Below, one piece after another: positions 11,123-34,302 of a DNA stretch of 36,509 nucleotides; positions within the stretch are counted from its first letter, which is position 1; every line of letters begins with the position of its first letter. Below the pieces are notes generated by a model. That model was not told the origin of the DNA. It searched no databases and was given only the letters and a program-made list of their open reading frames with translations. The translations under genes and the position numbers were made by a program. Source of the DNA: Pirellula staleyi DSM 6068 (GTDB lineage Bacteria; Planctomycetota; Planctomycetia; Pirellulales; Pirellulaceae); NCBI GenBank assembly GCA_945870455.1, contig CAMBSL010000030.1, positions 1-36,509 of the forward strand. The letters are read 5' to 3'.

Positions 11123-12124
11123 GTGCGTTCAGCAATTATCACCGGCATTACCGGGCAAGACGGATCTTATCTTTGCGAATTCCTCTTGAATGAAGGCTAC
11201 GTCGTTCATGGGATCGTTCGCAGAAGCAGCTCGCTTGAACGTCCACGATTGCTTTCCCAATACAACAATACCGAAATTTACGGCAAGAGATTATTTCTGC
11301 ATTACGCGGATCTATCGGATACCACTTCAATACGTAGGATCGTTGCTCATACAAAGCCCGACGAGTTTTATCACTTAGCAGGCCAATCGCACGTTGGACT
11401 TAGCTTTGAGATCCCAGAGAGTACTTGCGAGTTGACTGCCATGGGGACCCTTCGGATCATGGAGATCCTTCGCGATCAGCCGAACAACCCGAAGCTACTT
11501 CACGCAAGTAGCCGCGAAATATTTGGTACGCCCAAAATATCGCCCCAGGATGAGGATACGCCGCAGAATCCCAACTCGCCCTACGGTTGTGCCAAGGCCT
11601 TTGCCACACAAATGGTTCGTGTTTATCGGGAATCGCACGGCTCGTTCTTCTGCAATGCAATTTGTTACAACCACGAGAGTCCGCGGCGCGCAGAGAACTT
11701 CGTCACTCGCAAGATAACGCTGGCTGTGGCGAAAATTAAGCTCGGACTCCAATCCAAACTAATGCTTGGCTCCGTCGATTCAGCCCGTGACTGGGGCTAT
11801 GCCAAGGAATATGCAGAGGCGATGTGGCTGATATTGCAACATGCGTCCCCCGATGACTATGTCCTAGCCACCGGAACAAGTCATACGGTTCGAGAATTTG
11901 CTCGGATTGCATTTGAACACGTGGGACTGGATTGGCAACAACATGTCGAACTCGACAAACGCTTCGTTCGACCTGCCGACGCCGCATCACTTCTCGGAGA
12001 CGCTTCGAAAGCCGAGAGAGTTCTTGGATGGAAGGCAAAAACACACATGCATGAACTAGTTCGACTCATGGTGGATCATGACATGAAGTTGCTGGCTAGC
12101 ATGCAACCGATGATAGATCAATAA
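11123..12124 (+). CDS. gmd: GDP-mannose 4,6-dehydratase
   Basis: This NADP-dependent short-chain dehydrogenase converts GDP-mannose to GDP-4-keto-6-deoxymannose, precursor of GDP-fucose, GDP-rhamnose and related sugars. The 333-residue protein has the nucleotide loop GITGQDGSYL, the family stretch FYHLAGQSHVGLSFEIPE, the active-site segment HASSREIFG, YxxxK in SPYGCAKAF, and the diagnostic NHESPRRAENFVTRKIT. In the active-site segment the usual Ser-Thr-x-Glu reads Ser-Ser-Arg-Glu, so Thr is replaced by Ser and the Glu is kept. A GTG at 11123 starts exactly at the conserved N-terminus. It is the first gene of the locus. No GDP-4-keto-6-deoxymannose reductase (Fcl or Rmd) is in the window, so the final GDP-sugar is unknown. 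Confidence 0.93.
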   Translation: MRSAIITGITGQDGSYLCEFLLNEGYVVHGIVRRSSSLERPRLLSQYNNTEIYGKRLFLHYADLSDTTSIRRIVAHTKPDEFYHLAGQSHVGLSFEIPESTCELTAMGTLRIMEILRDQPNNPKLLHASSREIFGTPKISPQDEDTPQNPNSPYGCAKAFATQMVRVYRESHGSFFCNAICYNHESPRRAENFVTRKITLAVAKIKLGLQSKLMLGSVDSARDWGYAKEYAEAMWLILQHASPDDYVLATGTSHTVREFARIAFEHVGLDWQQHVELDKRFVRPADAASLLGDASKAERVLGWKAKTHMHELVRLMVDHDMKLLASMQPMIDQ

Positions 12125-12207: not shown

Positions 12208-12987
12208 ATGCAAGCTGTCATACTTGCCGGAGGTCTCGGAACGCGGATTTCCGAGGAGACACACCTAAAGCCCAAGCCGATGATCGAAATCGGTGGCAGA
12301 CCGATTCTGTGGCACATCCTTAAAATTTACTCGTCCCATGGCATTAACGATTTCATCATCTGCGCAGGCTACAAAGGCTATGTGATCAAAGAGTACTTTG
12401 CCAATTATTTCCTCCACATGTCGGATATAACATTTGACATGAGTCGAAACAGTATGGAAGTCCACGCTCGCAATGCGGAACCTTGGCGAGTGACGGTAGT
12501 CGATACTGGAGACGACACAATGACCGGAGGACGATTGGCTCGGGTTAAACCCTATCTCAATGACCAGACTTTTTGCTTTACCTATGGAGACGGCGTTTCG
12601 GATATCGATGTTACTGCAGCAGTTGATTTCCATCGCAAGCAAGGCAAGATTGCAACATTAACGGCGGTTCAACCGCCTGGTCGTTATGGAGCTCTGGGCT
12701 TCGATGAAAACGATGCGAAAATCGTCTCGTCGTTCCAAGAGAAGCCAGAGGGGGACGGTTCATGGATCAATGGCGGATACTTCGTTCTAGAACCCAAGGC
12801 CATTGATTACATCAAGGATGGTGACCATACAATTTGGGAACGACAACCGCTCGATAAATTGGCTAACGATGGACAACTTGTTGCATATCGACACGGAGGA
12901 TTTTGGCGTCCAATGGATACCTTGAGGGATAAGACTGATCTCGAAGCATTGTGGTCGAGTGGAAAAGCTCCTTGGAAATCTTGGTAA
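12208..12987 (+). CDS. rfbF: Glucose-1-phosphate cytidylyltransferase
   Basis: This enzyme makes CDP-glucose from CTP and glucose 1-phosphate, the entry step to CDP-3,6-dideoxyhexoses (also called ddhA). From the ATG at 12208 the product has 259 residues and starts at the conserved MQAVILAGGLGTRISEET. An ATG nine codons upstream (12181) is also possible but lies directly behind a tandem repeat. The nucleotidyltransferase signature continues with LKPKPMIEIGGRPILWHI. TYGDGVSDID is the metal and sugar-nucleotide segment, and GRYGALGF, INGGYFVLEP and the C-terminal GFWRPMDTLRDK are typical of the cytidylyl type. It is followed after 13 bases by rfbG, the next enzyme of the pathway. Confidence 0.96.
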   Translation: MQAVILAGGLGTRISEETHLKPKPMIEIGGRPILWHILKIYSSHGINDFIICAGYKGYVIKEYFANYFLHMSDITFDMSRNSMEVHARNAEPWRVTVVDTGDDTMTGGRLARVKPYLNDQTFCFTYGDGVSDIDVTAAVDFHRKQGKIATLTAVQPPGRYGALGFDENDAKIVSSFQEKPEGDGSWINGGYFVLEPKAIDYIKDGDHTIWERQPLDKLANDGQLVAYRHGGFWRPMDTLRDKTDLEALWSSGKAPWKSW

Positions 12988-13000
12988 TCAAATAGTACAA

Positions 13001-14122
13001 ATGTTTGCTGACATTTATCAAAATCGTTCTGTACTTGTTACGGGCCACACTGGTTTCAAAGGGAGTTGGCTTAGTCAGTGGCTTCTGCAACTTGGAGCTC
13101 AGGTACATGGCTTTGCACTCAATCCACAATCGCACGAGAAACTTTTTGATCAGCTTTCAATGGCCGAGAAACTTGCAACTGACACGCGAGCCGATATTTG
13201 CGACAGGGAGTTGCTCAAGGAAACGATTGACGAGACTCAACCCGATATAATATTTCATTTGGCAGCACAACCTCTAGTCCGGCTTTCGTTCGACATTCCG
13301 TTTGATACGTTTGAGACCAACGTAATGGGAACGGCAAATTTGCTCGAGTCCATTAGGTTGCTCGATCATTCTTGCTCAGTCGTACTAGTGACGACAGATA
13401 AGTGCTACGAGAATCGCGAATGGTTGCACGCATACAGAGAGGAAGACGCCATGGGAGGCTATGATCCCTATAGTGCATCTAAAGGGTGTGCAGAATTGGT
13501 GTCTGCAGCGTACCGCAATTCCTTTTTTTCTGTAAACTCCAGGCAAAGAATTGCAACTGCACGAGCGGGCAATGTCATAGGTGGCGGTGATTGGGCCAAA
13601 GACCGAATCGTTCCTGATGTGTTTCGAGCACTCGCAAAAGGAGAATCGATTCCAGTCAGAAACAAGCATGCAACAAGACCATGGCAACACGTGCTCGAGC
13701 CATTGTCAGGGTACCTTTGGCTCGGCGCAACGCTTGCTCAAGATCTTGATTCTGGTTCCTACCGGGAGCAATACTGCTCCGCGTTTAATTTTGGGCCCAG
13801 TATTTTGAGCAATCGAACCGTTTCGGAAGTAGTCCAGTCGATATTGAGCCATACCGGTGGCGAATGGATAGATCGTTCAGATCCCAATGCGCACCATGAA
13901 GCGTCCAAATTAAATTTGGCAATCGACAAGGCATTTCATTTGCTGGGCTGGCGACCGACTTGGGACTACGATGAGACCATTCTTAGAACTGCAGAATGGT
14001 ATCAGGCAGTCACCGACGGAGCCGACCCGACCAGTATGGTTTCGCAACATATCTCAACGTTTGAGTCGAACGCATCGGAAATTGGCAATCCATGGGCCTC
14101 TACCATGAACCAATCACAATAG
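13001..14122 (+). CDS. rfbG: CDP-glucose 4,6-dehydratase
   Basis: This NAD-dependent short-chain dehydrogenase converts CDP-glucose to CDP-4-keto-6-deoxyglucose (also called ddhB). The start chosen is the ATG at 13001, 13 bases after the rfbF stop, giving 373 residues. The frame is open upstream into rfbF but those codons are not family sequence. Features seen are the Rossmann loop GHTGFKGSWLSQWL, IFHLAAQPLVRLSF, the active-site stretch VTTDKCYENREW, the YxxxK motif in YDPYSASKGC, and ARAGNVIGGGDWAKDRIVPD, all hallmarks of this family. It sits between its upstream and downstream pathway partners rfbF and rfbH. Confidence 0.96.
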   Translation: MFADIYQNRSVLVTGHTGFKGSWLSQWLLQLGAQVHGFALNPQSHEKLFDQLSMAEKLATDTRADICDRELLKETIDETQPDIIFHLAAQPLVRLSFDIPFDTFETNVMGTANLLESIRLLDHSCSVVLVTTDKCYENREWLHAYREEDAMGGYDPYSASKGCAELVSAAYRNSFFSVNSRQRIATARAGNVIGGGDWAKDRIVPDVFRALAKGESIPVRNKHATRPWQHVLEPLSGYLWLGATLAQDLDSGSYREQYCSAFNFGPSILSNRTVSEVVQSILSHTGGEWIDRSDPNAHHEASKLNLAIDKAFHLLGWRPTWDYDETILRTAEWYQAVTDGADPTSMVSQHISTFESNASEIGNPWASTMNQSQ

Positions 14123-14134
14123 CTTGTATCATCT

Positions 14135-15637
14135 ATGAATGCACTTAATAACGATCAATTGAAGGCCGAGATTCTCAGACTTACTCGTGAGTTCTCAAGA
14201 CGAGTCCATGGAAGTAATCGGCCCGGTTACGAGGAAATTCAACCGAAGTTTATCCCGGGCGAAACGGTTGTTCCGTACGCAGGGAGAGTCTTTACCGAGG
14301 ATGAAGTCGAAGCGGCTGTGTCAAGTACGCTCGACTTCTGGCTTACGCTCGGTCCCGAAGGTGACAAATTTGAAAATCAACTTGCCGAGTTCTTGGGAGT
14401 TCGGAAATCGCTTTTGGTGAACTCAGGGTCGAGCGCTAATCTTATCGCAATATCGGCTTTGACAAGCCCCAAGCTTCCCAAAGACAAGAGACTGCGCCCG
14501 GGTGACGAAGTGATCACCGTCGCCGCAGGTTTCCCAACAACGGTTGCACCTATTCTGCAAAATGGATTAACAGCCGTGTTCATTGACGCGGATCCGATCA
14601 CGGGGAATGCTAGATGCGAACAACTCGAAAATGCCTATGTGCCGGGCAAAACAAAAGCAGTTATGATGGCGCACGCGCTAGGTAACCCGTTCGATCTTTC
14701 CGTGGTGCTTCCGTTCTGCAAAGAGCACGATCTTTGGTTGATAGAAGACAATTGCGATGCATTGGGATGTTCGTACACGCTCCCTGCAAACTCTCCATTG
14801 ATCGCTGACTATTCAAAGTCACCGCTTAATCCCGACGGTAGTTTGACTAAATATACGGGAAGTTGGAGTGACCTGTCGACTCAAAGTTTTTACCCGCCAC
14901 ACCATTTGACGATGGGCGAGGGTGGAGCCGTCAACATCGTCAAGCAGGCTGCTTTAAAGGTCCTGGTAGAAAGCTTTCGGGATTGGGGACGTGACTGTTG
15001 GTGCCCATCTGGCAAGGACAATACGTGCAACAAGCGATTTGGCTGGCAACTAGGCGAGTTGCCTGAAGGCTACGACCACAAGTATATCTATAGTCATCTC
15101 GGCTATAACTTAAAGCCGCTTGATATGCAGGCTGCCATCGGAAGCGTGCAACTTAAAAAACTACCTGCCTTCATTCAGGCGAGAAAAGACAATTGGCAGG
15201 CGTTGCGAAGTGGACTTGCATCGTTGGAAGAGTTCATTGAGTTTTCCCTGCCAACCCATGCAACGAAATGGAATGCGGACGGCAGTTTCGACTGGGATTC
15301 CACGGGTTGCCGTACAGACTGTTCCTGGTTCGGCTTCAAGATGTCCGTGCGTGCTGGAGCCCCATTCACTCGAACGGATTTGGCGAGACATCTCGACGAG
15401 TGCAAAATAGGGAATCGAATGTTGTTTGGTGGAAACCTATTGAGGCAACCCGCTTTTGTTCAAGCAACGTTGGATACGCCAAATTCCATTCGCGTGATCG
15501 GGGATTTGAGTGGTGCCGATGAGATAATGAATAGCACCCTATTCATCGGAACCTATCCAGGGCTTTCGTCTGCTATGATTCATTACATCAATGAATCGAT
15601 TGTTGACTTCGTGAAAAGTAAGACGGCAGCAACGTGA
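14135..15637 (+). CDS. rfbH: CDP-6-deoxy-4-keto-glucose 3-dehydrase (RfbH/E1)
   Basis: A PMP- and [2Fe-2S]-dependent dehydrase (also ddhC) that removes the C3 hydroxyl of CDP-4-keto-6-deoxyglucose. The fold is that of aspartate aminotransferase-like sugar aminotransferases. The usual PLP Lys is replaced: the site reads FYPPHHLTMGEGG with His256-His257, diagnostic of dehydrases. The iron-sulfur region DCWCPSGKDNTC gives Cys288, Cys290 and Cys298. The 500-residue length is above the roughly 437 of enterobacterial E1, partly through extra residues around 215-245 and 375-400. E1 enzymes normally need the E3 flavin/ferredoxin reductase, not encoded here. It overlaps the next gene by four bases (GTGA), implying translational coupling. 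Confidence 0.94.
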   Translation: MNALNNDQLKAEILRLTREFSRRVHGSNRPGYEEIQPKFIPGETVVPYAGRVFTEDEVEAAVSSTLDFWLTLGPEGDKFENQLAEFLGVRKSLLVNSGSSANLIAISALTSPKLPKDKRLRPGDEVITVAAGFPTTVAPILQNGLTAVFIDADPITGNARCEQLENAYVPGKTKAVMMAHALGNPFDLSVVLPFCKEHDLWLIEDNCDALGCSYTLPANSPLIADYSKSPLNPDGSLTKYTGSWSDLSTQSFYPPHHLTMGEGGAVNIVKQAALKVLVESFRDWGRDCWCPSGKDNTCNKRFGWQLGELPEGYDHKYIYSHLGYNLKPLDMQAAIGSVQLKKLPAFIQARKDNWQALRSGLASLEEFIEFSLPTHATKWNADGSFDWDSTGCRTDCSWFGFKMSVRAGAPFTRTDLARHLDECKIGNRMLFGGNLLRQPAFVQATLDTPNSIRVIGDLSGADEIMNSTLFIGTYPGLSSAMIHYINESIVDFVKSKTAAT

Positions 15638-16551
15638 AATGCTTTGTAACCGGTGCAAATGGTTTTGTCGGTAGCCATGTAGTACGGATGTTGGTTGAAT
15701 CCAGGATCCCAACCGCAGTGCTTGTTCGCAACAGTGCCTCTTGTCGCAATTTAGTCCATCTTTTATCAGATGTCGAAGTGTTTTGCGGCGACATGCACGA
15801 CGAGTCAGTCCTTTCCGGAGCGTTACAGGCCTTCCGGCCGGACACCATTCTACATTTGGGATGGACTGGTGTCGCATCTGGAAATCGAAATGAGACCTTG
15901 CAATTGTGCAATCTCCAAACATCCATCGAGTTGGTTCAGCTCGCCAAGAACTTTGGAGTTGGTACCATCGTCGCACTTGGTAGTCAAGCCGAGTATGGCC
16001 CCAAAGAAAGCGCAATGGATGAACACGCTGCATGTGCTCCTAACACTTTGTATGGAGCTGCGAAACTTGCAAGTTCGACCATCGGAATTCAGTTGTGCAA
16101 ATTGAACAAAATACGATTTGTTTGGCTGAGGCTTTTCTCCTGCTTCGGTCCCGGAGATCACTCAGGTGCAATGATCCCAAGTTTGATTGCCACTTTACTG
16201 GCTGGTGAAAAGCCGTCGCTGACTTCCGCGAGACAGAACTGGGATTACCTATACGTGGATGATGCGGCCAGAGCAGTCATTCATTCGGCTGTGAATTCTA
16301 ATTTAGAAGGTATCTTTAACTTGGGTTCGGGCAACGCGGTAGAACTGAGACAAATCATTGAGTGCATTCGTGATCAAATCGACAGCTCTTTACCGCTTGG
16401 GTTCGGAGAAATTGCACAGAATCCGGATGCGCCTAAGCACCTTGAAGCGAATATTGGCAAATTGGTCGCTTCAGGCTGGAAACCCGAAACTTCACTGTTG
16501 GAGGGTATCAAAACTACTATTGATTGGGTCAAGAAAGAGGTCTCGCAATGA
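15634..16551 (+). CDS. NAD(P)-dependent sugar-nucleotide reductase/epimerase, candidate YerF-type
   Basis: A 305-residue extended short-chain dehydrogenase with GANGFVGSHVV at the N-terminus, YxxxK in LYGAAKLASS, and NWDYLYVDDAARAV, the usual substrate-domain motif. By position it acts on the CDP-3,6-dideoxy-4-keto sugar. Two roles are possible: C4 ketone reduction, as in abequose or paratose synthases, or reduction of a two-carbon side chain, as YerF does in yersiniose biosynthesis. The coupled thiamine-diphosphate gene behind it favours the second. The GTG start overlaps the rfbH stop (GTGA), and its own stop overlaps the next ATG (ATGA). I recognise the family with confidence but not the exact reaction. 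Confidence 0.85.
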   Translation: MKCFVTGANGFVGSHVVRMLVESRIPTAVLVRNSASCRNLVHLLSDVEVFCGDMHDESVLSGALQAFRPDTILHLGWTGVASGNRNETLQLCNLQTSIELVQLAKNFGVGTIVALGSQAEYGPKESAMDEHAACAPNTLYGAAKLASSTIGIQLCKLNKIRFVWLRLFSCFGPGDHSGAMIPSLIATLLAGEKPSLTSARQNWDYLYVDDAARAVIHSAVNSNLEGIFNLGSGNAVELRQIIECIRDQIDSSLPLGFGEIAQNPDAPKHLEANIGKLVASGWKPETSLLEGIKTTIDWVKKEVSQ

Positions 16552-18266
16552 AAGCAACTGACTATATCGCCCTAGCCCTGCACGAGAAGAACGTTACCGC
16601 AGTTTTTGAGATGTCCGGTGGGATGATTACGCACCTGCTCGACTCAATTCATCTTTACGGAAAGACAAGGATCGTAAGCACACATCATGAGCAAGCTGCC
16701 GCTTTTGCTGCCGAGGGATATGGTCGAATGACCGGAGTTCCTGGTGTTGCAATGGCGACCAGTGGACCTGGTGCAACCAACTTATTGACGGGCGTGGGTA
16801 GTTGCTTTTTCGATTCTACGCCTGCGGTTTTCATTACCGGTCAGGTCAATAGACATGAACAAAAAGGAAACAAAGCAATCCGCCAGTTAGGATTTCAAGA
16901 AACGGACATCGTGTCGATGGCGGCCCCGGTCACAAAACACGCAACGATGGTACAAAACCCAGAATTGTTACAAGAAAGCTTCGAACATGCCTTCGAGACA
17001 GCGACAAGCGGTAGACCCGGTCCCGTGTTGCTGGACATCCCAATGGATGTTCAGCGAACACAGATTGAACCCAAACCTGTTAGCCCTACCAAAGTGGGCA
17101 AGGTTGGTTCGGACGAAATGGGACCCTTTCTAGAGGAAACCCTCAAAGCGCTTAATCAAGCAAAGTTTCCGTTGATCCTGATTGGAGGCGGAGTCCGGTC
17201 TGGACGATGTGCGGAAATGCTATTGCGCTTGATCGAAAAACTTGGTGTTCCGGTTGTACATTCGTTGATGGCAGTCGACGTTCTTCCGTTTCTTCATCCA
17301 CTCCGAGTCGGCATGATTGGCACCTACGGGAATCGATGGGCTAACATCGCATTGCATAAGTCAGATTGCATTCTTGTGCTTGGGAGTCGCTTGGACGTAC
17401 GACAGACTGGTTCAGACACGAAGGCATTTAGCAAGGGAAAATCGTTCTTCCACGTCGACTGCGAAGCAGGAGAAATGAATAATCGAGTGGAAGGCTGCCG
17501 GACACTTGTGAGCGAACTGAGCACCTTCTTGGATTTCGCGGTTGCACAAGTTTTTAGGCAAGCGGAAAAGGAAGACTGGCAATTTGAAATCGGCGAATCT
17601 AGGAAGCAATGGCCAGACGATGGTGAACTTCCTGGGATCGAGGGCATCAATCCGAACCGTTTTATGCACGCTCTCTCTGCGGCAACCCCATCCGCTTCCG
17701 CATACGTAGTTGACGTCGGCCAACATCAAATGTGGGCGGCCCAATCGTTAAGACTTGGTGCGGATCAACGCTTCCTAACATCGGGTGGAATGGGATCCAT
17801 GGGATTTGCACTCCCGGCCGCGATTGGCGTGAGCGTTGCAGTACCTGACCGCCCGTGTGTTATGATTGCAGGCGACGGCGGATTTCAAACGAATATTCAG
17901 GAACTTGAGACGGTTCGAAGATATCATCTGCCAATCAAAATGATCGTAATAAACAATCAATGCCACGGTATGGTTCGGCAGTTTCAAGAGAGCTATTTCG
18001 AAGGAAGGTATCAATCGACGTTCTGGGGATACAGCGCCCCTGACTTTGAAAGAGTAGCCGATTCTTATCGAATTCCAGCTCGAACCTGTCGGCTCAGTGA
18101 AGACATCCAGGGAGCAATGGATTGGCTGTCACAAGACATGAGTGCTCCCTCTCTTCTTCAAATTATGGTAGACACTTTTGCCAATGCCTACCCAAAGGTA
18201 GCGTTCGGATGTCCAATTTCGGAAATGGAACCATTCGCAAAACCTATTGAAATGGAGAGCACTTGA
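16548..18266 (+). CDS. Thiamine-diphosphate enzyme, candidate YerE-type branched-sugar synthase
   Basis: A 572-residue member of the acetolactate synthase-like ThDP family. It has the activating glutamate Glu48 in STHHEQAAAFAAEGYGR, the GPGATNLLTG stretch, a central domain with ILIGGGVRSGR, and the ThDP/Mg motif starting GDGGFQTN near residue 442 and ending INN. The N-terminus MKATDYIALALHEKN at 16548 overlaps the previous stop (ATGA). The frame also opens at 16524, within the previous gene. In Yersinia, YerE transfers a two-carbon unit from pyruvate to C4 of CDP-3,6-dideoxy-4-hexulose. Placement directly behind rfbF-rfbG-rfbH and a reductase strongly suggests the same chemistry here, rather than branched-chain amino acid synthesis. 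No ilvN/ilvC neighbours are present. The YerE assignment is inference from family plus context. Confidence 0.82.
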   Translation: MKATDYIALALHEKNVTAVFEMSGGMITHLLDSIHLYGKTRIVSTHHEQAAAFAAEGYGRMTGVPGVAMATSGPGATNLLTGVGSCFFDSTPAVFITGQVNRHEQKGNKAIRQLGFQETDIVSMAAPVTKHATMVQNPELLQESFEHAFETATSGRPGPVLLDIPMDVQRTQIEPKPVSPTKVGKVGSDEMGPFLEETLKALNQAKFPLILIGGGVRSGRCAEMLLRLIEKLGVPVVHSLMAVDVLPFLHPLRVGMIGTYGNRWANIALHKSDCILVLGSRLDVRQTGSDTKAFSKGKSFFHVDCEAGEMNNRVEGCRTLVSELSTFLDFAVAQVFRQAEKEDWQFEIGESRKQWPDDGELPGIEGINPNRFMHALSAATPSASAYVVDVGQHQMWAAQSLRLGADQRFLTSGGMGSMGFALPAAIGVSVAVPDRPCVMIAGDGGFQTNIQELETVRRYHLPIKMIVINNQCHGMVRQFQESYFEGRYQSTFWGYSAPDFERVADSYRIPARTCRLSEDIQGAMDWLSQDMSAPSLLQIMVDTFANAYPKVAFGCPISEMEPFAKPIEMEST

Positions 18267-18395: not shown

Positions 18396-19973
18396 TTGAT
18401 TTGGTTTGGAAGGAGCCCGGAAAATCTATTGACTACAACCAGACAAACACTTTTTGCAATCGCTTCGAGCTGGTTTAATCGGTTAGTTACGATATTCTTG
18501 GGCCTTGCTCTCATGCCCTTGCTGTTTAGCAATCTTGGGCATGAGGAACTAGGGGCTTGGATTCTGTTGGCTCAAACGAGTTCGATACTCGGAGTTCTTG
18601 ACTTCGGTTTTGCGGCAACGCTAACTCGAAGAATCGCGTTTGCCAAAGGAATGAGTGGCGGCGCACCCAACGTACCCCTAAATGATGAGTCGACCCGGTT
18701 AATCGCAAACTTGGTAACGACCGGTAAGCGAGTCTACCAAGCCATAGCCGTTTCCACATTCCTCATTTCCTTTATTGGAGGCTCGCTTTACCTTTCACAA
18801 ATTGAGGTCAAGGATGTGAGCCTGTCGACTCTGCTATTTGCGTGGGGAGTTTTGTGCTTGAGTCAGGCAATCACTATACTCTCGCTGATCTGGACTTCTT
18901 TGATGCAAGGAATCGGATATGTGGGCTGGGACGCACTGATCAATTCGCTCGCGTCCTCGATTACTATCATTGCTCAGATCAGTTGTGTCATTTTCGGAGG
19001 AGGAATTGTAAGCCTCGCCGTGGTGGTTTCGTTGGGTGCTGTCTTGCAACGGGTTCTCATTGTTGGGATCGCAAAAAAACGTCGTCCGCAAGTTTTTCAA
19101 TTTAGTGGAAGCTGGGACAGCTCGCTTCTTCGAAGCATGGTAACGATATCGCTTCGATCTTGGGTGACTGGTCTAAGTTGGGTCCTGGTACTCAATTCGG
19201 ACCCGATATTCATCGCGAAAATCCTTGGTACGGATGAGATTCCAGTCTACCGAGCAGCACACCTAATCTTTTACAATATGACGCTCATGTCAGTCACAGC
19301 CGGCACAGCCTCTGCGGTCTTTGTGAGCCAATTATGGCAGGCAGGCAAACAGGAAGATGCCCGGAGGATCGTATTGCGCAATCTTAGGCTAGGGTTAGGT
19401 CTGATGGCTTCCGGTAGTGCATTCACCATTATGTTGGATCACCGGCTGTTTGATGTTTGGCTTGGCGCGGGCAATTTCGTTGGGGCAACAATACTCTGGA
19501 TACTGTTCGCATTGTTTTTCCTGGAAACACAGTGTCAGATTGTGAGTGCGGGATCGCGGGCGACCGAGGACGAGGCATTTGCACTTTCCTTTTGCGCTGC
19601 GGCTGTGCTCAAGATAGGCTTCGCGCTTGCTCTGGGGTACTATTTCGGCCTGGTTGGAATTGCCATGTCCACCCTTATAGCACAGGGGTTGACGAACTAT
19701 TGGTATATGGTTTATCGAGGTCTGACGCGACTTGGGATTAGTTTTTACTCGCACGTATGCACAGTTCTGGCACCTACCTTAGTGCTTTTTTGCGGCGTAA
19801 TGTTCGCTGTCCGTTTGGTTATCTTGTCGAATGTATTTAGCGGCATAACGGAGCTGATTGCCACCGCGGCTGTCTCTGGTGTACTCCTATTCGGATTCAC
19901 TTGGACGTTTATCGCCGAACCGAATCAGCGGGCTCAAGTCTCCGGTTGGCTGAGGAAACTGCGACCATCTTGA
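18396..19973 (+). CDS. wzx: Wzx-type polysaccharide flippase
   Basis: An integral membrane protein of about 525 residues with roughly 12-14 hydrophobic segments. It opens LFAIASSWFNRLVTIFLGLALMPLLFSNLG, typical of the MOP/PST (Wzx) exporters that flip undecaprenyl-linked oligosaccharide units. FGFAATLTRRIAFAKG in the N-terminal third and the repeated small-residue membrane helices are consistent. The frame opens with TTG at 18396. A second TTG at 18429, preceded by AAGGAG at 18409-18414, is an alternative that removes 11 residues. With the Wzy-like gene further down it defines a Wzx/Wzy-dependent assembly route. Confidence 0.87.
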   Translation: MIWFGRSPENLLTTTRQTLFAIASSWFNRLVTIFLGLALMPLLFSNLGHEELGAWILLAQTSSILGVLDFGFAATLTRRIAFAKGMSGGAPNVPLNDESTRLIANLVTTGKRVYQAIAVSTFLISFIGGSLYLSQIEVKDVSLSTLLFAWGVLCLSQAITILSLIWTSLMQGIGYVGWDALINSLASSITIIAQISCVIFGGGIVSLAVVVSLGAVLQRVLIVGIAKKRRPQVFQFSGSWDSSLLRSMVTISLRSWVTGLSWVLVLNSDPIFIAKILGTDEIPVYRAAHLIFYNMTLMSVTAGTASAVFVSQLWQAGKQEDARRIVLRNLRLGLGLMASGSAFTIMLDHRLFDVWLGAGNFVGATILWILFALFFLETQCQIVSAGSRATEDEAFALSFCAAAVLKIGFALALGYYFGLVGIAMSTLIAQGLTNYWYMVYRGLTRLGISFYSHVCTVLAPTLVLFCGVMFAVRLVILSNVFSGITELIATAAVSGVLLFGFTWTFIAEPNQRAQVSGWLRKLRPS

Positions 19974-20074: not shown

Positions 20075-20731
20075 ATGTTACAATCGAGTATGCTGATTGG
20101 GAAACAAGAAATAGGTGTCTCGCCAGATCATACAAAGAGAATGGCAATGAGCGCGATCAGGCTTGTCCCCGAGACCTTTCCAAGTCGACTTGCTATGGAC
20201 GTCGGGGGAGGCGAAGGAACGCTTGCTCGAATGCTGACGGAAACGTTCACATCTGTTACGCTCCTCGATTACAACGCGCACAAACGAGATGATTTGCCGA
20301 CTCGAATCTCTGCCATCCAGTGCGACTTGAACCTCGTGTGGCCCATTGAGGACAACACCGTTGACTTTGCATTCTCTTTGGAGGTGATCGAGCATATAGA
20401 GAACCCAAGGCACTTCCTCCGAGAGATGGCAAGAATTGTAACACCGGGTGGTTATGTTTTTATTACAACTCCCAATATTCACAACCTTTGGAGTGTAATT
20501 GCTTTTGCCCTGAGGGGTCAGCACAGGTATTTTCAGGACAGTAGCTATCCGGCCCATATAACACCACTGTCCAAAATCGACCTGCATCGCATTGGCAGAG
20601 AGGCTGGTCTTGTTGTGAAAGGCGAATTATGGGGCGGACGGGATCCGGCACCATTCACGAGCATAAGGCTGCCTAGTTTTATTCACCAATTATCATCAAC
20701 GATTGGCATTCTTTACATGAAGCCACTCTAG
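20075..20731 (+). CDS. SAM-dependent methyltransferase (class I)
   Basis: A 218-residue soluble methyltransferase. Motif I is MDVGGGEGTLARML, an acidic residue follows in LLDYNAHKRDD, and FAFSLEVIEHIENP and PGGYVFITTPN match the Methyltransf_11/23 type seen in polysaccharide and lipid-linked sugar modification. The ATG at 20075 has AGAAAG seven bases upstream. Likely role: O-methylation of a sugar, or modification of a lipid-linked intermediate. The substrate cannot be told. Confidence 0.85.
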   Translation: MLQSSMLIGKQEIGVSPDHTKRMAMSAIRLVPETFPSRLAMDVGGGEGTLARMLTETFTSVTLLDYNAHKRDDLPTRISAIQCDLNLVWPIEDNTVDFAFSLEVIEHIENPRHFLREMARIVTPGGYVFITTPNIHNLWSVIAFALRGQHRYFQDSSYPAHITPLSKIDLHRIGREAGLVVKGELWGGRDPAPFTSIRLPSFIHQLSSTIGILYMKPL

Positions 20732-20787
20732 ACAACTGAGCATCTCGTACGCGTTAAATTTTAATGCCCCATGATAGGTTAAAAAGT

Positions 20788-20808
20788 CGTCGCGATCAAA
20801 AGGCGACG
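20788..20808. other. GC-rich hairpin ahead of the acyltransferase gene
   Basis: CGTCGC (20788-20793) and GCGACG (20803-20808) are perfectly inverted around nine bases, 15 bases before the ATG at 20824. The right arm shares AAAAGGCGAC with the palindromic elements of the left flank, so it may be a decayed copy. In mRNA it would lie next to the ribosome-binding region. Confidence 0.35.
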
Positions 20809-20823
20809 TGACAAGCAGACTCT

Positions 20824-21972
20824 ATGAGCAGGTTGTATGCGATTGATGGGCTTCGAGGCTTGGCGGCGTTGGCGGTGCTTGTGTATCACTCTCGCTCGTC
20901 TTTCTGGGTCGGCATTAACGCCACCTACAGAGAACATGGCCTAGCGCCCAATCTGAATGCCTGGATAGGATATTTGACCGCACCCTTTAGCTTTGGCGGC
21001 CTAGGAGTTACACTCTTTTTCGTTCTTTCAGGATTCTGTATTCATAGACGTGGTGCACGCAATCTCGCCAGTAGTAATCCAAGTGAATTGAATTTGGTCA
21101 CGTTCGCAAGTCGTCGGTTCTGGCGAATTTTCCCTACGTATGTTTGTGCATTGCTATTGACAGCATTAATAGACTACTGGCTTCAAGCAATGTCCGGGCA
21201 CAAAGTTCCAAACCAGGACAATTCCGCATTCACTTTCTTAATTAGTTTATTGACACTGCAGGGCTATGTGGCTCCTTCGTTTGGCAGTAACGGCGTGTTT
21301 TGGACGCTGGCTATGGAGATCCATCTTTACGCCATGTATCCGCTGCTATACGGACTGTCCTCTAGAATGGGCCCGGTTCGTGTGTTGGCAATGACGTTTT
21401 TTATATCCTTGCTCTACACGATATGTGAAATGATGTTCAAATTTGAGAGCCTGTTTGCATATCGCTTTGATCGCGGGCCAGCTTTTCTACCTTATTGGTT
21501 TACTTGGACATTGGGCTTCTATCTTGCAGAAGTAGAAGCTGGGAGATGCAGAAGTGTAGGCGACAAAGTTTGGTTCTCGGCGAGCATTGTGGCGATTCCT
21601 ATTGGCGTTTGCCTGTCGCTTATGAATCACTACTTATTAGCCGAACTCTTCTGGGCGATCGTTTTTGTTAGTTTGTTAAAGGCGAGCTTGAAACCTAGGG
21701 GTGAGGAGATTTTTCGGATGCGAATAGGGAGGTTTTTTGCAGCAATAGGCGTGTTTAGTTACTCGCTTTACGCTGTGCATGCCCCGCTGCTGCGGCTATT
21801 CCACTCGCTCATTTCACCGGGTGATCCAAACTACAAGTTTGAGACGTTATGGATGACTTTAGCTGGAGTCGTTGTAAGTGTTGTTTTCGCTTACGTTTTC
21901 TTTCAGCTTGTTGAAAGATGGAGTATACCGAAAACATCAAGAATTGAAGTCAAGTTGGAACCATCGGCCTGA
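20824..21972 (+). CDS. Acyltransferase 3 family (OafA-like) membrane protein
   Basis: A 382-residue multi-pass membrane protein starting MSRLYAIDGLRGLAALAVLV with the invariant His of the family in VYHSR. FSFGGLGVTLFFVLSGF, FASRRFWRIFPTY and the terminal VYAVHAPLLRL-type segment (written here as YSLYAVHAPLLRL) follow in family order, with about ten membrane helices. These enzymes transfer acetyl or other acyl groups to surface sugars. No SGNH domain is attached. Probably O-acylates the polysaccharide of this locus. Confidence 0.92.
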   Translation: MSRLYAIDGLRGLAALAVLVYHSRSSFWVGINATYREHGLAPNLNAWIGYLTAPFSFGGLGVTLFFVLSGFCIHRRGARNLASSNPSELNLVTFASRRFWRIFPTYVCALLLTALIDYWLQAMSGHKVPNQDNSAFTFLISLLTLQGYVAPSFGSNGVFWTLAMEIHLYAMYPLLYGLSSRMGPVRVLAMTFFISLLYTICEMMFKFESLFAYRFDRGPAFLPYWFTWTLGFYLAEVEAGRCRSVGDKVWFSASIVAIPIGVCLSLMNHYLLAELFWAIVFVSLLKASLKPRGEEIFRMRIGRFFAAIGVFSYSLYAVHAPLLRLFHSLISPGDPNYKFETLWMTLAGVVVSVVFAYVFFQLVERWSIPKTSRIEVKLEPSA

Positions 21973-22029
21973 AAAGACATGGCTGCCGATGACATTAAAA
22001 TAAAAAATCTACACCCCTGCATTGTGTTC

Positions 22030-22050
22030 CGCGAAAACGACGTTTCCGCG
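22030..22050. other. 9-bp hairpin upstream of the GT2 gene
   Basis: CGCGAAAAC (22030-22038), GAC loop, GTTTCCGCG (22042-22050): nine pairs with one A-C mismatch. The sequence around it (TTCCGCGAAA..., GTCGCTAAGGGCGGC) again recalls the palindromic intergenic elements, in decayed form. It lies about 60-80 bases before the GT2 reading frame. Confidence 0.4.
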
Positions 22051-22109
22051 TCGCTAAGGGCGGCAAAACAAAGTGGTTTATTTGACGTTTCAAATAACTG
22101 AGAAGAAAA

Positions 22110-23099
22110 ATAGAGTCAAAAACTTCGAAGTCCGCGAAACTGAGTATCTGTATTCCAACTTGGAACAGAAGCACGTTTTTACAGAAAACTCTCTTGATTT
22201 TAGCGGGTCAAATTGAGACGGATCGGCTGGGAGATCACGTTGAAATCTGCATTAGCGACAATGGTTCAACGGATGATACACCAACTGTTGTTGGTCGAAT
22301 TGTAGATGAAAATCCAAAACTGCAAATCGCTCTCCATCGTTTTCCGGAGAATCAAGGATTCTCTATCAATATGGATGCTGCCGTCCGAATTGCATCTGGC
22401 GAATTTGTTTTTCTGCTTGGGGATGATGACATATTTGCGCCTCGTGGGGTGGTTGATTTGCTGAACGCATGCTCCGAATTAGAAGCAGATACACTCGTGA
22501 TACTCAATCTGAAAAATGCAGATTGCAATAGTGAGTGGAGTAGAACGGCGTCTAGTGAACAAGTTATTTTCCGAGACGTTCGCGAGTCCTTGATGCAACT
22601 TGGTAAGTTTCATCCTACGTTTATTGGTAACTTTATTTTCAGGCGAACTGCGTATCGAAAGCACTTTCAACCTCGCTTTTTAAAGTCTATTTATCCACAC
22701 ACGGCGATATTATTTGAAATCATGCGTGGAAAGCGGGTGCATTTCCAAAATCTCTGTTGCTTGGAGGTCGATGATTCAGATCGCCACGTTGGGGATTGCC
22801 AATCTCGCGCGACAGCTGTCGATATGGCAAGAATCCAAACGGAGGGGCATCTACGCCATCAAGGAGGCCAGTTTGAAAATTTGCTTTTTTACAGTGTTAA
22901 TCTGCGAAGTATTCCTCGCGCTATGTTGCTTCAGCGTTCCGGGCTTTGTAAAGAAAGGCGTGGAATCTACTCAGAACTTCGGATAAAGAATCTATTAAGC
23001 TGTTACAATGGGTCTACAATTGCGATTGTCTGCGCAGTTATTCTCGTTTTAGCTTCTCGACTTGTCCCAAAATGGCTTTTGAGGATGATACTACGGTGA
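22110..23099 (+). CDS. Family 2 glycosyltransferase with no canonical start codon
   Basis: A GT-A fold glycosyltransferase: VEICISDNGSTDDT and LLGDDDIF (DxD-like) are clear. The first ATG/GTG/TTG in frame is a TTG at 22194, which would start inside the catalytic fold. The same frame is open upstream to 22098 (after a TAA at 22095) and encodes KLSICIPTWNRSTFLQKTLL, the canonical first strand and P-T-x-N-R motif of GT2. So the gene truly begins upstream, yet only CTG (22098, 22140) or ATA (22110) are available. I set the start at the ATA behind AGAAG (22101-22105); this is a guess. The C-terminus has a hydrophobic segment and basic tail, probably a membrane anchor. It overlaps the following GT4 gene. 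Confidence 0.75.
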   Translation: MESKTSKSAKLSICIPTWNRSTFLQKTLLILAGQIETDRLGDHVEICISDNGSTDDTPTVVGRIVDENPKLQIALHRFPENQGFSINMDAAVRIASGEFVFLLGDDDIFAPRGVVDLLNACSELEADTLVILNLKNADCNSEWSRTASSEQVIFRDVRESLMQLGKFHPTFIGNFIFRRTAYRKHFQPRFLKSIYPHTAILFEIMRGKRVHFQNLCCLEVDDSDRHVGDCQSRATAVDMARIQTEGHLRHQGGQFENLLFYSVNLRSIPRAMLLQRSGLCKERRGIYSELRIKNLLSCYNGSTIAIVCAVILVLASRLVPKWLLRMILR

Positions 23100-24238
23100 A
23101 GCTGCCGACGAAGAGGAAGATACTCATCAGCGGTGGATTGGCTGTGGGTGGGCCGCAAACACACGTGACAATTCTTTGTGAGATTCTAAAGAGCAAAGGT
23201 GCGGATGTAACAATCGCCGCCGCAGCAACCAATTGGGACGCTTTGTCTCTCAATGCACTTAAGTCAAAAGGGGTTCGAATACTTGTTCCCCCGTTTGGCT
23301 TTGGTAGGCTTTCCTTTATTGGCAAAGCGTTATCAATTTGGGGGTGGCCGCTTTTGATGAGTAAGTCATTCGATGTTGTCTACTGCATTGGTGAAGGGAG
23401 AATGCATCTTGTAGCGAAAAGATACTGTGTTTCGGGAGGTCATTGCATTTATCATGAAATTGTGGACTGCCCAGTGCGAGATTCTCTTGTTCACGGAATA
23501 GCCGCAAGTATGACCGCGATAATTGGAAACTCTAACGAAGTAACTCGCAAGCTCAGGAATCTCTTGCCTGAGATTCCCGTCAAAACAATTCCGTTTCTGA
23601 CTTCGAGAGAAGCGAGTGATACTGAGGTTATCCGTGTTCGCAAATCTCCAACGCGAAATTTGAATGTGGCCTTTCTTGGTCGTCTCGTCGTTCACAAAAG
23701 ACCAGCTCAGCTTATCGATTTTTGGCGTGAACACCAGAATGGTAGTGTTGTGGGGCCTAGTAAACTACACCTTTATGGTGGTGATTGCGGCTCTGGCTAT
23801 AAAGATATTTTAGTCCAAAAGGTTAAGCATCTCGGCCTGACAGACCGAATTGCATTACATGGAGAGTATAATCATGCGCAGCTTTCACAGGTTCTCGAAA
23901 ACGTTGACTTGGTGGTCTTACCATCGCTTTTTGAAGGACTCCCCCTAGTTTTGGTTGAGGCGATGTCTAGGGGCATTCCCGTCGTTGCGACTTCTGCAGG
24001 AGGAACCGCAGAACTTGGTTTTGACAACGAAGATGTTATCATCACGGAAGGTACAGATTGGAGTGCATTTGAGGTTGGGCTATTAAGGATGATATCCATG
24101 ATCCGAAGCGAAAAGATAGATTGCAATCGACTAAAAAGATGGACCGAGGATCGCTATGGTTTCGCAAGCGTTTCCAGGCAATGGGAAAGCGCTCTGCTTA
24201 ATACAAGTATTTCCTTCGGTTGTGGACAAAGTTTATAG
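23096..24238 (+). CDS. Family 4 glycosyltransferase
   Basis: A GT-B retaining glycosyltransferase. The N-domain begins KILISGGLAVGGPQTHVTIL (the glycine loop), and the C-domain has LNVAFLGRLVVHKRP and the nucleotide-sugar motif ending LFEGLPLVLVEAMSRGIPVV, an EX7E signature. The frame opens at ATG 23072, but a GTG at 23096 overlaps the preceding stop by four bases (GTGA), the same coupling used at 15634. I prefer this start (380 residues). Donor and acceptor are unknown. It sits between a GT2 and another GT4 in the assembly block. Confidence 0.88.
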   Translation: MKLPTKRKILISGGLAVGGPQTHVTILCEILKSKGADVTIAAAATNWDALSLNALKSKGVRILVPPFGFGRLSFIGKALSIWGWPLLMSKSFDVVYCIGEGRMHLVAKRYCVSGGHCIYHEIVDCPVRDSLVHGIAASMTAIIGNSNEVTRKLRNLLPEIPVKTIPFLTSREASDTEVIRVRKSPTRNLNVAFLGRLVVHKRPAQLIDFWREHQNGSVVGPSKLHLYGGDCGSGYKDILVQKVKHLGLTDRIALHGEYNHAQLSQVLENVDLVVLPSLFEGLPLVLVEAMSRGIPVVATSAGGTAELGFDNEDVIITEGTDWSAFEVGLLRMISMIRSEKIDCNRLKRWTEDRYGFASVSRQWESALLNTSISFGCGQSL

Positions 24239-24281
24239 CTTGGATTGTTTTTGTGTTTGCTGAATGGCAGAGTAATTGAAC

Positions 24282-25553
24282 ATGAACGAGGTCCGGGTCG
24301 CTCACATAATGGATGGATCTAGACGACACTATGACGTTGCTCAAGCGCTTCATCGAGAGCGATGCTTGCACAGCATGTTCACGTCGTGGTATTCGCCGCC
24401 TGGCTCTTGGGAGGCCTTCGTAGGGCGGGGGGTGAGAATGATTTCGCCAAAGCTCGGGCAAAAAATGCTCGAACGGTACTGCCAAGTCATTCCAAGTGAA
24501 ATGGTGCGGGCAAATCCTTGGCTTATGCTTCGAGGAGCTATCGCAAAACGTCAGTTTCGAATGGAGGAAGAATATTTTGAATGGATGTCTTTCGAGACCG
24601 CCAAATGGATTGAAAAAAAAGGAATCCTTAACGCAAATGGAATGTATGGTTACGTGCGAAATATTCATCCTAGATTGTGTAAGAATGCCCGGGATGAGGG
24701 GGTTGTCGTTGTAGGTGAGCAAATGATTGCTCCTGCGGCTATCGAAAGGCAGCAAGCACAGTATCAACAAGAAAGATGGCCGGGATGGGAGAATCCCATG
24801 TCAAATAAAGCGTTCGATCTGGTACAGGAGAATGAGCAAAAAACATGGGAGAACCTAGATCGGATCGTAGCTCCTTCTCAATATGTAGTAGAAGGTCTAG
24901 TTGCTTGCGGTGTAGATGCTGACCTAATCGATTTGATACCCTATCCCGGTGAGTTCGAATCCATATTCAGTAACAGGGACTATGGAAAACAGAAAGATCA
25001 ATTTACAATTGGCTTTGTTGGCCAAATTAATTTAAGGAAGAATGCTCCAATCTTCATGGAGATTGCTAAGAAAATGAAGGGTGAAGGAGTTCGGTTTACC
25101 ATGGTTGGTCGAAATTATCTAAATCAACAACGGATTGACGAGTACCGACCTTACGTTAATTTTACAGGGGCCGTGGCCCGTTCCCAGATCCGGCGTCATT
25201 TGGATGAATTCGACGTTTTTTTCTTTCCAAGTACCTGTGAGGGATCTGCGGGAGTAGTTTTAGAAGCTATGGCTGAAGGGCTGCCTATCATTACCACGCC
25301 CAACAGCGGTACAATCGTCGAACATGGCGAAAACGGGTTCGTTGCAACTCCAAACGATATTGAGACCTTTATCCAGTACATAACCTTGTTGAAAGAAGAT
25401 CCAACGAGCCGACTCCAAATGGGGATGAACTCGCAAAAACGTGTTAGTGAGCTAACAATAGAGGAATACGGTAAAAAACTGGTTCACAGCTTTCAAAAAG
25501 GCACTTTATTCAAGATGACAGCATGTCAGGATAACAGTTCGTATGATCGATAG
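24282..25553 (+). CDS. Family 4 glycosyltransferase
   Basis: A 423-residue GT-B protein starting MNEVRVAHIMDGSRRHYDVA at the ATG 24282; a TTG two codons upstream is possible. The N-domain is longer and more helical than usual (residues about 40-170). The C-domain has FTIGFVGQINLRKNAPIF and the EX7E motif STCEGSAGVVLEAMAEGLP, with the following GTIVEHGENGFV. It overlaps the next gene, a polymerase, by 11 bases, implying coupled expression. The sugar transferred is unknown. Confidence 0.88.
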   Translation: MNEVRVAHIMDGSRRHYDVAQALHRERCLHSMFTSWYSPPGSWEAFVGRGVRMISPKLGQKMLERYCQVIPSEMVRANPWLMLRGAIAKRQFRMEEEYFEWMSFETAKWIEKKGILNANGMYGYVRNIHPRLCKNARDEGVVVVGEQMIAPAAIERQQAQYQQERWPGWENPMSNKAFDLVQENEQKTWENLDRIVAPSQYVVEGLVACGVDADLIDLIPYPGEFESIFSNRDYGKQKDQFTIGFVGQINLRKNAPIFMEIAKKMKGEGVRFTMVGRNYLNQQRIDEYRPYVNFTGAVARSQIRRHLDEFDVFFFPSTCEGSAGVVLEAMAEGLPIITTPNSGTIVEHGENGFVATPNDIETFIQYITLLKEDPTSRLQMGMNSQKRVSELTIEEYGKKLVHSFQKGTLFKMTACQDNSSYDR

Positions 25554-26868
25554 TAACTTCCTTATATTCCTCGCTAATATCTCAATTTTGCTACTGTTTG
25601 CGGGCGTTGTCATTTCTTCTCTTTTGACTCCGAGGAAAATGCTTTCATTCAAGTTCACCTCGGTCTGTCTAGGCAGCTATTTCTATATATTTCTTAACTT
25701 TAACGCCCAGTCTCAGATGGGAGGTTATCTCGCAAGCACCGATCTGTTATTGTCGCTCGCTATCATATTATTCACCTACATTGCCATTGTGATTGCGCAG
25801 CCAAGTGTCAAATGCTTGAAGGTTGAAGGAACAGCATTCGAGTACGATTGGAACATGCTCTGGTACATCTCCATCGCGGTGGCAATAATTGGGTTCGCCG
25901 GCACTTATAGTTTCACGTCACAGTCCGAGCGAGACTGGAAAAATACATCTGCGTACTGGTACATGACGTTTCATGCCACGTATCCATCTATTGCATTGAT
26001 GCTTTGGGCGTCCCTAAAAACGCCTGGTAGTGAAGGTAGAATTAAATTGATACTCACAGGAGTCCTCGCTTTTGCTTGCCTCGTACCATTCATCATTACA
26101 GTACGACGCGGTCCAATGTTTCCCATGGCAATTGTTTTGTTGTTCACTCCTTCTCTTGCGTTGCGGAAATCACCCTCTAGGTTCATACTGCTGTCGGGAC
26201 TCGCCGCAACGGGCTTTTTAATGTTGCTTTTTGTCACGATTCGAGACTACAGCGTCTCCTCGGATCAACAATGGAGCAAGATATTCTCATTGAATGTGGC
26301 GGATACACTTTTAGATAAGGCTAAAAATGTTAACGACAATGAATTTATTTATCACTGCTATCTGGTTACGTCGTCGTACAGAAGCGGACTGTATCAGTAC
26401 GGTACCTCGTACCTGAACTTGGCAGTTTGCTGGATTCCTCGCCAAATATGGCCCGATAAGCCGGATATGACCGTTGGGTGGTTCGAATCACCGATGCAAG
26501 GAAACCGTGTATTTGAAGTCATAGGCAATTCTTTATCCGGAGGCGCAGCAGCAGGCGGAATTGCGAATGTTTTTTTGCAATTTGGCCTCCTAACACCCGT
26601 TTTCTTTTGGTGGATTGCGAGATCGTTTGAGAATCTCTACGTTAAATGTATCGCATTTGGCGATCCGCGGCATTGTCTGGTCTATGTGGGACTTTCAGCT
26701 GGCCTACATTGGTTTATAGCACAAGGAGTTGAAGCGGCATTCGTTCCATGTGTAGTCTACATCGTTATACCTCTGGTTCTTTTGAGGGTTGTCGCGAGAA
26801 GATCCGAAACCGTTTCTACTGGTCCTCCTTACAGGCACGTAGATTTTACGCGCGTAGGTACTCGGTGA
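25543..26868 (+). CDS. Wzy-type O-antigen/oligosaccharide repeat-unit polymerase
   Basis: A 441-residue, strongly hydrophobic protein with about 11-12 membrane helices and a large extracytoplasmic loop (about residues 240-325), the topology of Wzy polymerases, which join lipid-linked repeat units in the periplasm. Arg-rich loops with TVRRGPMFPMAI and VTIRDYSV resemble the O-antigen polymerase/EpsG-like type in which Arg residues contact the sugar chain. Primary sequence in this family is poorly conserved, so the call rests on topology, length and location between glycosyltransferases with a flippase upstream. It overlaps the previous gene by 11 bases. Confidence 0.75.
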   Translation: MIDSNFLIFLANISILLLFAGVVISSLLTPRKMLSFKFTSVCLGSYFYIFLNFNAQSQMGGYLASTDLLLSLAIILFTYIAIVIAQPSVKCLKVEGTAFEYDWNMLWYISIAVAIIGFAGTYSFTSQSERDWKNTSAYWYMTFHATYPSIALMLWASLKTPGSEGRIKLILTGVLAFACLVPFIITVRRGPMFPMAIVLLFTPSLALRKSPSRFILLSGLAATGFLMLLFVTIRDYSVSSDQQWSKIFSLNVADTLLDKAKNVNDNEFIYHCYLVTSSYRSGLYQYGTSYLNLAVCWIPRQIWPDKPDMTVGWFESPMQGNRVFEVIGNSLSGGAAAGGIANVFLQFGLLTPVFFWWIARSFENLYVKCIAFGDPRHCLVYVGLSAGLHWFIAQGVEAAFVPCVVYIVIPLVLLRVVARRSETVSTGPPYRHVDFTRVGTR

Positions 26869-26910
26869 TGGTTGGTAAAGTCGCATTGCGCAACTGAGTT
26901 GTAGCCTATT

Positions 26911-26940
26911 GAATAGTCAAAAGACTATTTTTAATTTTTT
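26911..26940 (+). terminator. Intrinsic terminator after the polymerase gene
   Basis: AATAGTC (26912-26918), loop AAAA, GACTATT (26923-26929), extended by a G-T pair and followed by TTTAATTTTTT (26930-26940). The 7-bp stem is perfect but has only two G-C pairs. The T-tract runs straight into the next gene's start region, so downstream genes would rely on readthrough or another promoter. Confidence 0.5.
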
Positions 26941-26946
26941 GTGAAA

Positions 26947-28131: not shown

Positions 28132-28248
28132 GAAAAAACAAGGTTTGTTACGAGTTGCCTTTTATGGTCATCAAATCAATTCTTTATTGATAAAATTGTT
28201 TTTGACTACCTTTCGTTTAATGCATCGCTAGCTGCGCGAAGAAGCACT

Positions 28249-28827: not shown

Positions 28828-28849
28828 ACCATTACATCTTTCTTGCCAC

Positions 28850-30499: not shown

Positions 30500-30572
30500 T
30501 TAAATTGTTTACTTTTGATTTGAGTCTAAACGGAACGTCCCAAAACTGGAAAACCGTTAAAAGGGTTTGCTT

Positions 30573-34261: not shown

Positions 34262-34302
34262 CACGTGACGGCCGAGAATGGCAGTACTCCTTGCAACTCA
34301 TA

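Follow-up and report, generated by a model that had tools for sequence, protein, structure and literature searches.

The closest described system is the CDP-yersiniose pathway (CDP, cytidine diphosphate) of Yersinia pseudotuberculosis O:6 and Pseudomonas WCS417, with the genes ddhDABC, yerE and yerF. Yersiniose is found in O-antigens (PMC8533242, PMC4753412, PMC3715488). Described here is a related cassette of five genes from the planctomycete Pirellula staleyi DSM 6068. It lies at 12208-18266 on the plus strand of a stretch of 36,509 nucleotides (contig CAMBSL010000030.1, assembly GCA_945870455.1), called the window below. In order, the genes encode RfbF, RfbG, an E1-type RfbH, an extended short-chain dehydrogenase/reductase (SDR) and a thiamine diphosphate (ThDP) enzyme.

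The cassette shares with the yersiniose pathway DdhA, DdhB and DdhC, a YerE-like ThDP enzyme, an SDR and a setting in an O-unit-type locus. It differs in that no ddhD was found with it, and in its planctomycete host; the sequences of YpYerE and YerF lie outside the comparison. The first-pass annotation of this DNA had proposed a yersiniose-like pathway. The gene families and their order do fit that logic: RfbF, RfbG and RfbH score above their cut-offs and stand in one run with a YerE-like ThDP gene and an SDR gene. Taken as a whole, the cassette is best explained, quite probably, as making a CDP-activated C4-branched 3,6-dideoxyhexose from five genes, without a dedicated E3 reductase.

To our knowledge, such branched deoxy sugars have to date been described from only a few other bacteria. 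Krug 2024 is said to count more than 200 YerE-like enzymes.

Enzymes of the cassette

DdhA, DdhB and DdhC are all present, since three NCBIfam equivalog models are exceeded above their curated cut-offs. RfbF (DdhA, glucose-1-phosphate cytidylyltransferase, for CDP-glucose formation) is encoded at 12208..12987 and scores 457 bits against TIGR02623 (cut-off 300). This match begins at residue 10 of a longer open reading frame, so the ATG at 12208 is the likely start. RfbG (DdhB, CDP-glucose 4,6-dehydratase) follows at 13001..14122, with 472 bits against TIGR02622 (cut-off 278). RfbH (DdhC) at 14135..15637 is a CDP-4-keto-6-deoxyglucose 3-dehydratase of the E1 type, which works with pyridoxamine phosphate (PMP) and a [2Fe-2S] cluster; it reaches 633 bits against NF011936 (cut-off 423). 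Like 12208, position 13001 for RfbG (from its ATG: MFADIYQNRSVLVTGHTGFK) and position 16548 for the ThDP gene are probably natural starts.

The SDR is encoded at 15634..16551 (PF01370, with TGANGFVG at 6 and YGAAK at 140) and the ThDP enzyme, a proposed C4-branching carboligase that also binds flavin adenine dinucleotide (FAD), at 16548..18266. The earlier description of five adjacent plus-strand genes is borne out by the open reading frames. So is the coupling of the last three by 4-base overlaps, namely GTGA at 15634-15637 (RfbH/SDR) and ATGA at 16548-16551 (SDR/ThDP).

The best PDB matches of RfbH are 3bcx and 3bb8. That a His-His pair takes the place of the lysine for pyridoxal phosphate, as first noted from the letters, holds up: residues 256-257 align with H220/H221 of E1, and 3bb8, the other E1 entry, has a lysine at exactly the site of this pair. 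The E1 cysteines C193, C251, C253 and C261 are retained at 207, 288, 290 and 298, and by their numbers we take them to be the [2Fe-2S] ligands. The replaced lysine and the four cysteines are both features of the E1 and SpnQ 3-dehydratases. In both of these enzymes, the cluster has four cysteine ligands; ColD is without an iron-sulfur cluster (PMC8987622). Because RfbH has the E1 cysteines, and because RfbF and RfbG match CDP-glucose models, a route to colitose bound to guanosine diphosphate (GDP) was dropped.

The first-pass annotation also named the catalytic Glu48 of the ThDP protein, and this residue was confirmed. The ThDP motif (GDG-N) consists of GDG at 442-444 and Asn470. Judged by its sequence, the protein is well supported as a member of the YerE-like family and not as an acetohydroxyacid synthase (AHAS).

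The top NCBIfam model is the AHAS model TIGR00118, at 460 bits and below its cut-off of 538, and the Pfam matches are AHAS-like too. A PDB sequence search gives 436 bits to 5ahk, 307 to AHAS and 270 to JanthE (8rph). Foldseek ranks 5ahk first (E 4e-51), then JanthE, with AHAS at about 7e-48; the margin is small, and the query was an AlphaFold2 model with a mean pLDDT (predicted local distance difference test) of 84 in which the insertion discussed below is poorly predicted. The protein is 41% identical to 5ahk. It is 31% identical to JanthE, which is not higher than to AHAS: 32-35% to E. coli AHAS I, Arabidopsis AHAS and the separate IlvB of its own genome (L001, 34%), and 34-38% to 17 other AHAS rows. 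The deposition title of 5ahk reads acetohydroxy acid synthase Pf5, from P. protegens; presumably, this is PpYerE. Structures of PpYerE and JanthE exist (PMC12247030). In P. protegens Pf-5, the locus numbers of an E3-type reductase (PFL_5093), of RfbH (PFL_5096) and of a flippase (PFL_5099) lie close together, and rfbF and rfbG are on the same list (PMC12361813).

Phylogeny had been suggested as a check, and firm clustering with IlvB-type enzymes was not what it gave. Trees of 39 and 43 rows separate YerE-like proteins from AHAS with 100/100 support, in a single change, and 0 of 500 shuffles came as low. The AHAS rows are 17 of 75 AHAS-like loci plus E. coli AHAS I, Arabidopsis AHAS and the genome's own IlvB; a fragment from locus L157 was left out, as were L174-L177, L180 and L181. 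In the 43-row tree, the ThDP protein groups at 97/92 with 5ahk and with the loci L008 (a Deinococcales metagenome-assembled genome, or MAG), L009 (a Peregrinibacteria MAG) and L011.

Individual columns follow the same split. The ThDP protein has a 6-residue insertion. The stretch after GQV that holds it is 20, 21 or 24 letters long in 23/23 YerE-like rows and 15 in 20/20 AHAS. A tryptophan present in 19/20 AHAS rows is F, T or M in all 23 YerE-like rows (Phe in the ThDP protein). The column of JanthE K567 is Lys or Arg in 20 of the 21 YerE-like rows with a letter there (two have gaps), versus Met or Leu in 20/20 AHAS. The Tyr260 column has Tyr in 17/23 YerE-like rows versus His in 20/20 AHAS. 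Published residue numbers of JanthE and 5ahk are one off from the chain letters; the correspondences given here are taken from the alignment and allow for this shift. Tyr260 aligns in this way with JanthE Y268, which is reported to steady FAD (PMC12188165). PpYerE V479 could not be placed with certainty.

Compared with 5ahk, the ThDP protein has the clade, the insertion and the Phe for Trp in common, but it has Lys550 where 5ahk has Arg. With JanthE, it shares the YerE-like subclass, the insertion, Tyr260 and Lys550, but JanthE has CDG for GDG and Thr at the tryptophan site. AHAS enzymes such as IlvB share the superfamily, the ThDP/FAD fold and the catalytic Glu; they lie across the 100/100 branch and lack the insertion.

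A plasmid search with the ThDP protein returned 26 records below 60% identity, the best at 36.5% among the 15 matches listed, and the annotated ones among these are AHAS genes. No match at E <= 1e-112 was found in 369 genomes of the class of an Enterobacter locus (L041); this search had a strict threshold and no positive control, scored at most 3 candidates per genome among the matches listed, and is uninformative.

The SDR groups with the SDRs of L010, L118, L112 and L115, and also with that of L012, in a set starred in the tree (98/99); the placement of L012, on a long branch (6.27), is unsure. Excluded from this set are RfbG, three paralogues from the same genome and the GDP-mannose 4,6-dehydratase-like protein (GMD) encoded upstream. 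Scores agree, at 126-137 bits for L010, L118, L112 and L115 versus at most 76 for the own paralogues. The first-pass label of SDR-type reductase stands in its first half; the word reductase was a guess, which sequence alone does not settle.

Relatives and their gene neighbourhoods

The cassette recurs within the genus. The 55 relatives searched include 26 congeners, of which two have the ThDP protein (96% and 91% identity); a further two genomes, from the same order, gave weaker matches of 39% and 37%. Both congeners retain the order NrdR-GMD-RfbF-RfbG-RfbH-SDR-ThDP. From GMD through ThDP, protein identity is 89-98% and dN/dS (the ratio of non-synonymous to synonymous rates) is 0.05-0.30. An intact cassette at such low dN/dS argues against chance. 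This conservation also means that the cassette is native to the genus, patchy within it, and under purifying selection.

Outside the genus, the ThDP lineage goes with RfbH. Of 80 loci, five have at least 44% ThDP identity, and all five carry RfbH (47-53%). The 75 lower-scoring loci (at most 38%, AHAS-like) have no RfbH match above 250 bits, although some of their contigs end near the gene. In the phylum of L009, 7/379 genomes matched, that of L009 included, which added six loci. The phylum of L012 gave 3/398, again including its own, and added two. Among these eight, RfbH (42-51%) is near the ThDP gene in L112, L113, L118 and L119. Among the relatives beyond the genus that reach 40% ThDP identity by reference alignment, RfbH is thus a neighbour in 9/9, the RfbH proteins being 42-53% identical. 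By the search's own figures L114-L116 also reach 40%, and the link is then 9/12. The order in L010 (F-G-H-SDR-ThDP) is identical to that of the cassette, and L118 has G-H-SDR-ThDP.

The contig of L011, from Actinomycetota, also holds a second and very divergent ThDP enzyme, beside a 3-dehydroquinate synthase-like gene (3219-6202, minus strand).

In the planctomycetes at large, the ThDP protein itself is rare: a search of 392 evenly sampled genomes of the phylum at E <= 1e-110 returned three matches, one of them its own and the other two at 38%. RfbH (NF011936) is above its cut-off in 24 of the 392, and in 0 of 14 control genomes. Wider stretches around the other 23 RfbH genes, several of them cut by contig ends, contain a ThDP relative in five cases (L158, L167, L168, L172, and an edge fragment in L157). 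In these 296 kb, 0.25 ThDP genes would be expected versus the 5 observed (P about 7e-6); the expectation is a rough one from a single genome, the host's own, with 5 TPP_enzyme_C matches in 5.84 Mb. The four complete cases fall on the JanthE side of the tree, in a 6-row set (100/99) that includes the second ThDP protein of L011, and the planctomycete rows there also carry the insertion. Counting the host, and judging L157 from its fragment, 6/24 RfbH-bearing genomes of the phylum have a YerE- or JanthE-like ThDP gene near RfbH.

The proposed route and its rivals

In the proposed route, RfbF would form CDP-glucose, and RfbG would convert it to CDP-4-keto-6-deoxyglucose. RfbH would then remove the C3 hydroxyl via a PMP adduct. 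With a 2-keto acid as donor, pyruvate being the likeliest, the ThDP enzyme would carry out a decarboxylation and attach the resulting acyl group at the C4 ketone, after which the SDR may reduce the new side-chain ketone. The product would be passed to the downstream glycosyltransferases and flippase. As read from the genes, a 4-C-branched 3,6-dideoxyhexose for a surface polysaccharide is highly probable. There is about an even chance that this branch has two carbons, as in yersiniose.

Several observations count against this route or parts of it. Yersiniose is one of several YerE-type products, others including erwiniose, caryophyllose and gastriose (PMC12247030). The characterised YerE-like references are 5ahk and JanthE only, and YpYerE, ErwE, YerF and the mycobacterial enzymes were not included. 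Identity between the SDR and its nearest kin in other cassettes does not exceed 30%. The SDR at the same gene position in L008 falls outside the SDR group, and no SDR match was found in the stretches of L113, L114, L116 and L119. The side-chain ketoreductase role is for this reason a putative one, and it is plausible that the SDR is a YerF. For yersiniose itself, this reduction was uncharacterised as of 2016 (PMC4753412).

Some YerE-like genes also lack the expected partner. L114-L116 (38% by alignment) adjoin a DegT protein at 31-32% that keeps the histidine and lacks the cysteines of E1. For L117 there is only a DegT protein at 23% identity, at a distance of several genes. No RfbH is found on the fetched stretches of L120 and L121, planctomycete YerE-like proteins at 37%, or of L180 (39%) and L181 (37%), from the same order as the host; over these four, ThDP identity is 36-39%, and they speak against any strict pairing of the ThDP family with RfbH. 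A YerE-like enzyme alone is therefore no proof of an E1-type product. The DegT proteins of L114-L116, in the phylum of L009, are possibly ColD-like, on an iron-sulfur-free route to another branched sugar.

The last such point concerns electron supply. No DdhD/E3, recognised as Fer2 plus FAD_binding_6 in one protein, was found in the host's 92.5% complete assembly. With names given by eye from sequence, the only PF00970 (FAD_binding_6) matches there are PyrK-like (L006) and Fpr-like (L007), and the only PF00111 (Fer2) match is NuoG. FAD_binding_6 has no match in three of the five genomes of L008-L012 and a single match in each of the other two, outside the fetched cluster (open frames of 259 and 407 aa). 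In the host and these five genomes, whose assemblies are incomplete, the cluster and its vicinity showed no E3-like gene. As no E3 was found, RfbH must draw its electrons from another source. E1 requires E3, which uses NADH (reduced nicotinamide adenine dinucleotide), FAD and [2Fe-2S], and SpnQ uses ferredoxin or flavodoxin pairs instead (PMC8987622). The SpnQ arrangement is the likelier one for the cassette, with general ferredoxin or flavodoxin reductases presumably reducing RfbH. An E3-less version of the pathway is the simplest reading.

It is possible, if rather unlikely, that the ThDP enzyme prefers larger 2-keto acids and makes a longer or functionalised branch, like that of erwiniose, caryophyllose or gastriose. 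Donors do vary: ErwE refuses pyruvate, and JanthE and MygE accept long donors (PMC12247030). Position 289 is a small Ser, which aligns (with the one-residue offset) with JanthE Y297, a residue linked to donor binding (PMC12188165). But the protein clusters with 5ahk, presumably PpYerE, and not with JanthE (ErwE is absent from the tree), and PpYerE is a homologue of YpYerE, which prefers pyruvate (PMC12247030). Nor did a Pfam scan of 27 proteins of the window show an aldolase for hydroxylated 2-keto acids.

An improbable reading has the SDR as a terminal C4 ketoreductase making an unbranched 3,6-dideoxyhexose of the paratose or abequose type, with the ThDP gene serving something else. The SDR gene does stand directly after RfbH, and abequose synthase is an extended SDR as well. 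However, the overlapping SDR and ThDP genes are kept together in two congeners, the ThDP lineage accompanies RfbH in the nine relatives given above, and cassette-type SDRs group apart from the host's own paralogues.

That the ThDP protein is a duplicate of acetolactate synthase which serves branched amino acids or acetoin, and lies near sugar genes by chance, deserves hardly any credence: the first-ranked TIGR00118 model and the overall fold are in its favour, but the tree, the signature columns (insertion, lost Trp), the synteny, the sub-cut-off score and the separate IlvB all oppose it.

The surrounding locus and its meaning

Upstream of the cassette, GMD is encoded at 11123..12124 on the plus strand (TIGR01472, 404 bits, just below the cut-off of 415). 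A GMD homologue (45-49%) is also on the fetched stretches of L012, L112, L117 and L118, and so recurs near YerE-like genes in several phyla. GMD probably serves a second sugar, outside the branched-sugar route.

Directly 3' of the cassette is a Wzx-like O-unit flippase at 18396..19973 (plus strand; NF041503, 113 bits, below the cut-off of 300). In another genome of the phylum (G027), a Wzx 35% identical to it stands beside RfbH at 6268-9137 of L169, with no ThDP match in the fetched 16 kb. A polysaccharide locus then continues at 20075..35596, also on the plus strand. By Pfam it encodes a methyltransferase, Acyl_transf_3, GT2, five GT4, a hexapeptide transferase and an EpsH exosortase, and further a 441-aa protein with no Pfam family above cut-off and a 535-aa protein. 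At 30567-32543 a GT4 domain is fused to a sulfotransferase-like domain, which suggests a sulfated glycan.

Two GT4 and the GT2 are kept in both congeners, and the methyltransferase and the acyltransferase match in L179 only. For the Wzx, tblastn at 1e-10 gave no match in the stretches of the two congeners, where other proteins occupy its site. The gene after the ThDP gene differs in all three genomes (18396-19973 here, 5199-6536 in L178, 7277-8641 in L179), each product polytopic by eye; this amounts to serotype-like exchange behind a conserved sugar cassette in a planctomycete. It looks like a usual polysaccharide locus with a constant sugar module.

That the host is a planctomycete is supported by PSD1 (PF07587), with 69 matches at E <= 0.001 in its genome and 0 in the 14 control genomes. 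Base composition does not decide whether the cassette was transferred: its G+C content of 0.48-0.50 compares with 0.51-0.53 over the opening 9.5 kb and 0.44-0.46 for 21-33 kb.

Searches of the open-access literature gave no paper that, judged by its title and the beginning of its abstract, describes such a sugar from a planctomycete, and the review of YerE-like enzymes (PMC12247030) does not mention planctomycetes. A YerE-type sugar-branching pathway in this phylum is well supported as a claim about families. A wider picture is more tentative, and we hold it as possible rather than probable. Planctomycetes would make branched 3,6-dideoxy sugars for their surface glycans recurrently but patchily, by an E3-less route in which general ferredoxin or flavodoxin reductases supply RfbH. 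The two ThDP lineages would have been acquired separately, that of 5ahk and PpYerE in this genus and that of JanthE in others. The cassette would move between phyla, with the flippase and some transferases exchanged.

The lack of an E3-like gene in or near the clusters of the host and of L008-L012 raises the question of which donor serves RfbH. Chemists seek ketone-accepting carboligases for chiral tertiary alcohols (PMC12247030), and the cassette points to such enzymes beyond the usual sources. For the surface glycans of planctomycetes, it also yields a chemical prediction that is concrete and can be tested.

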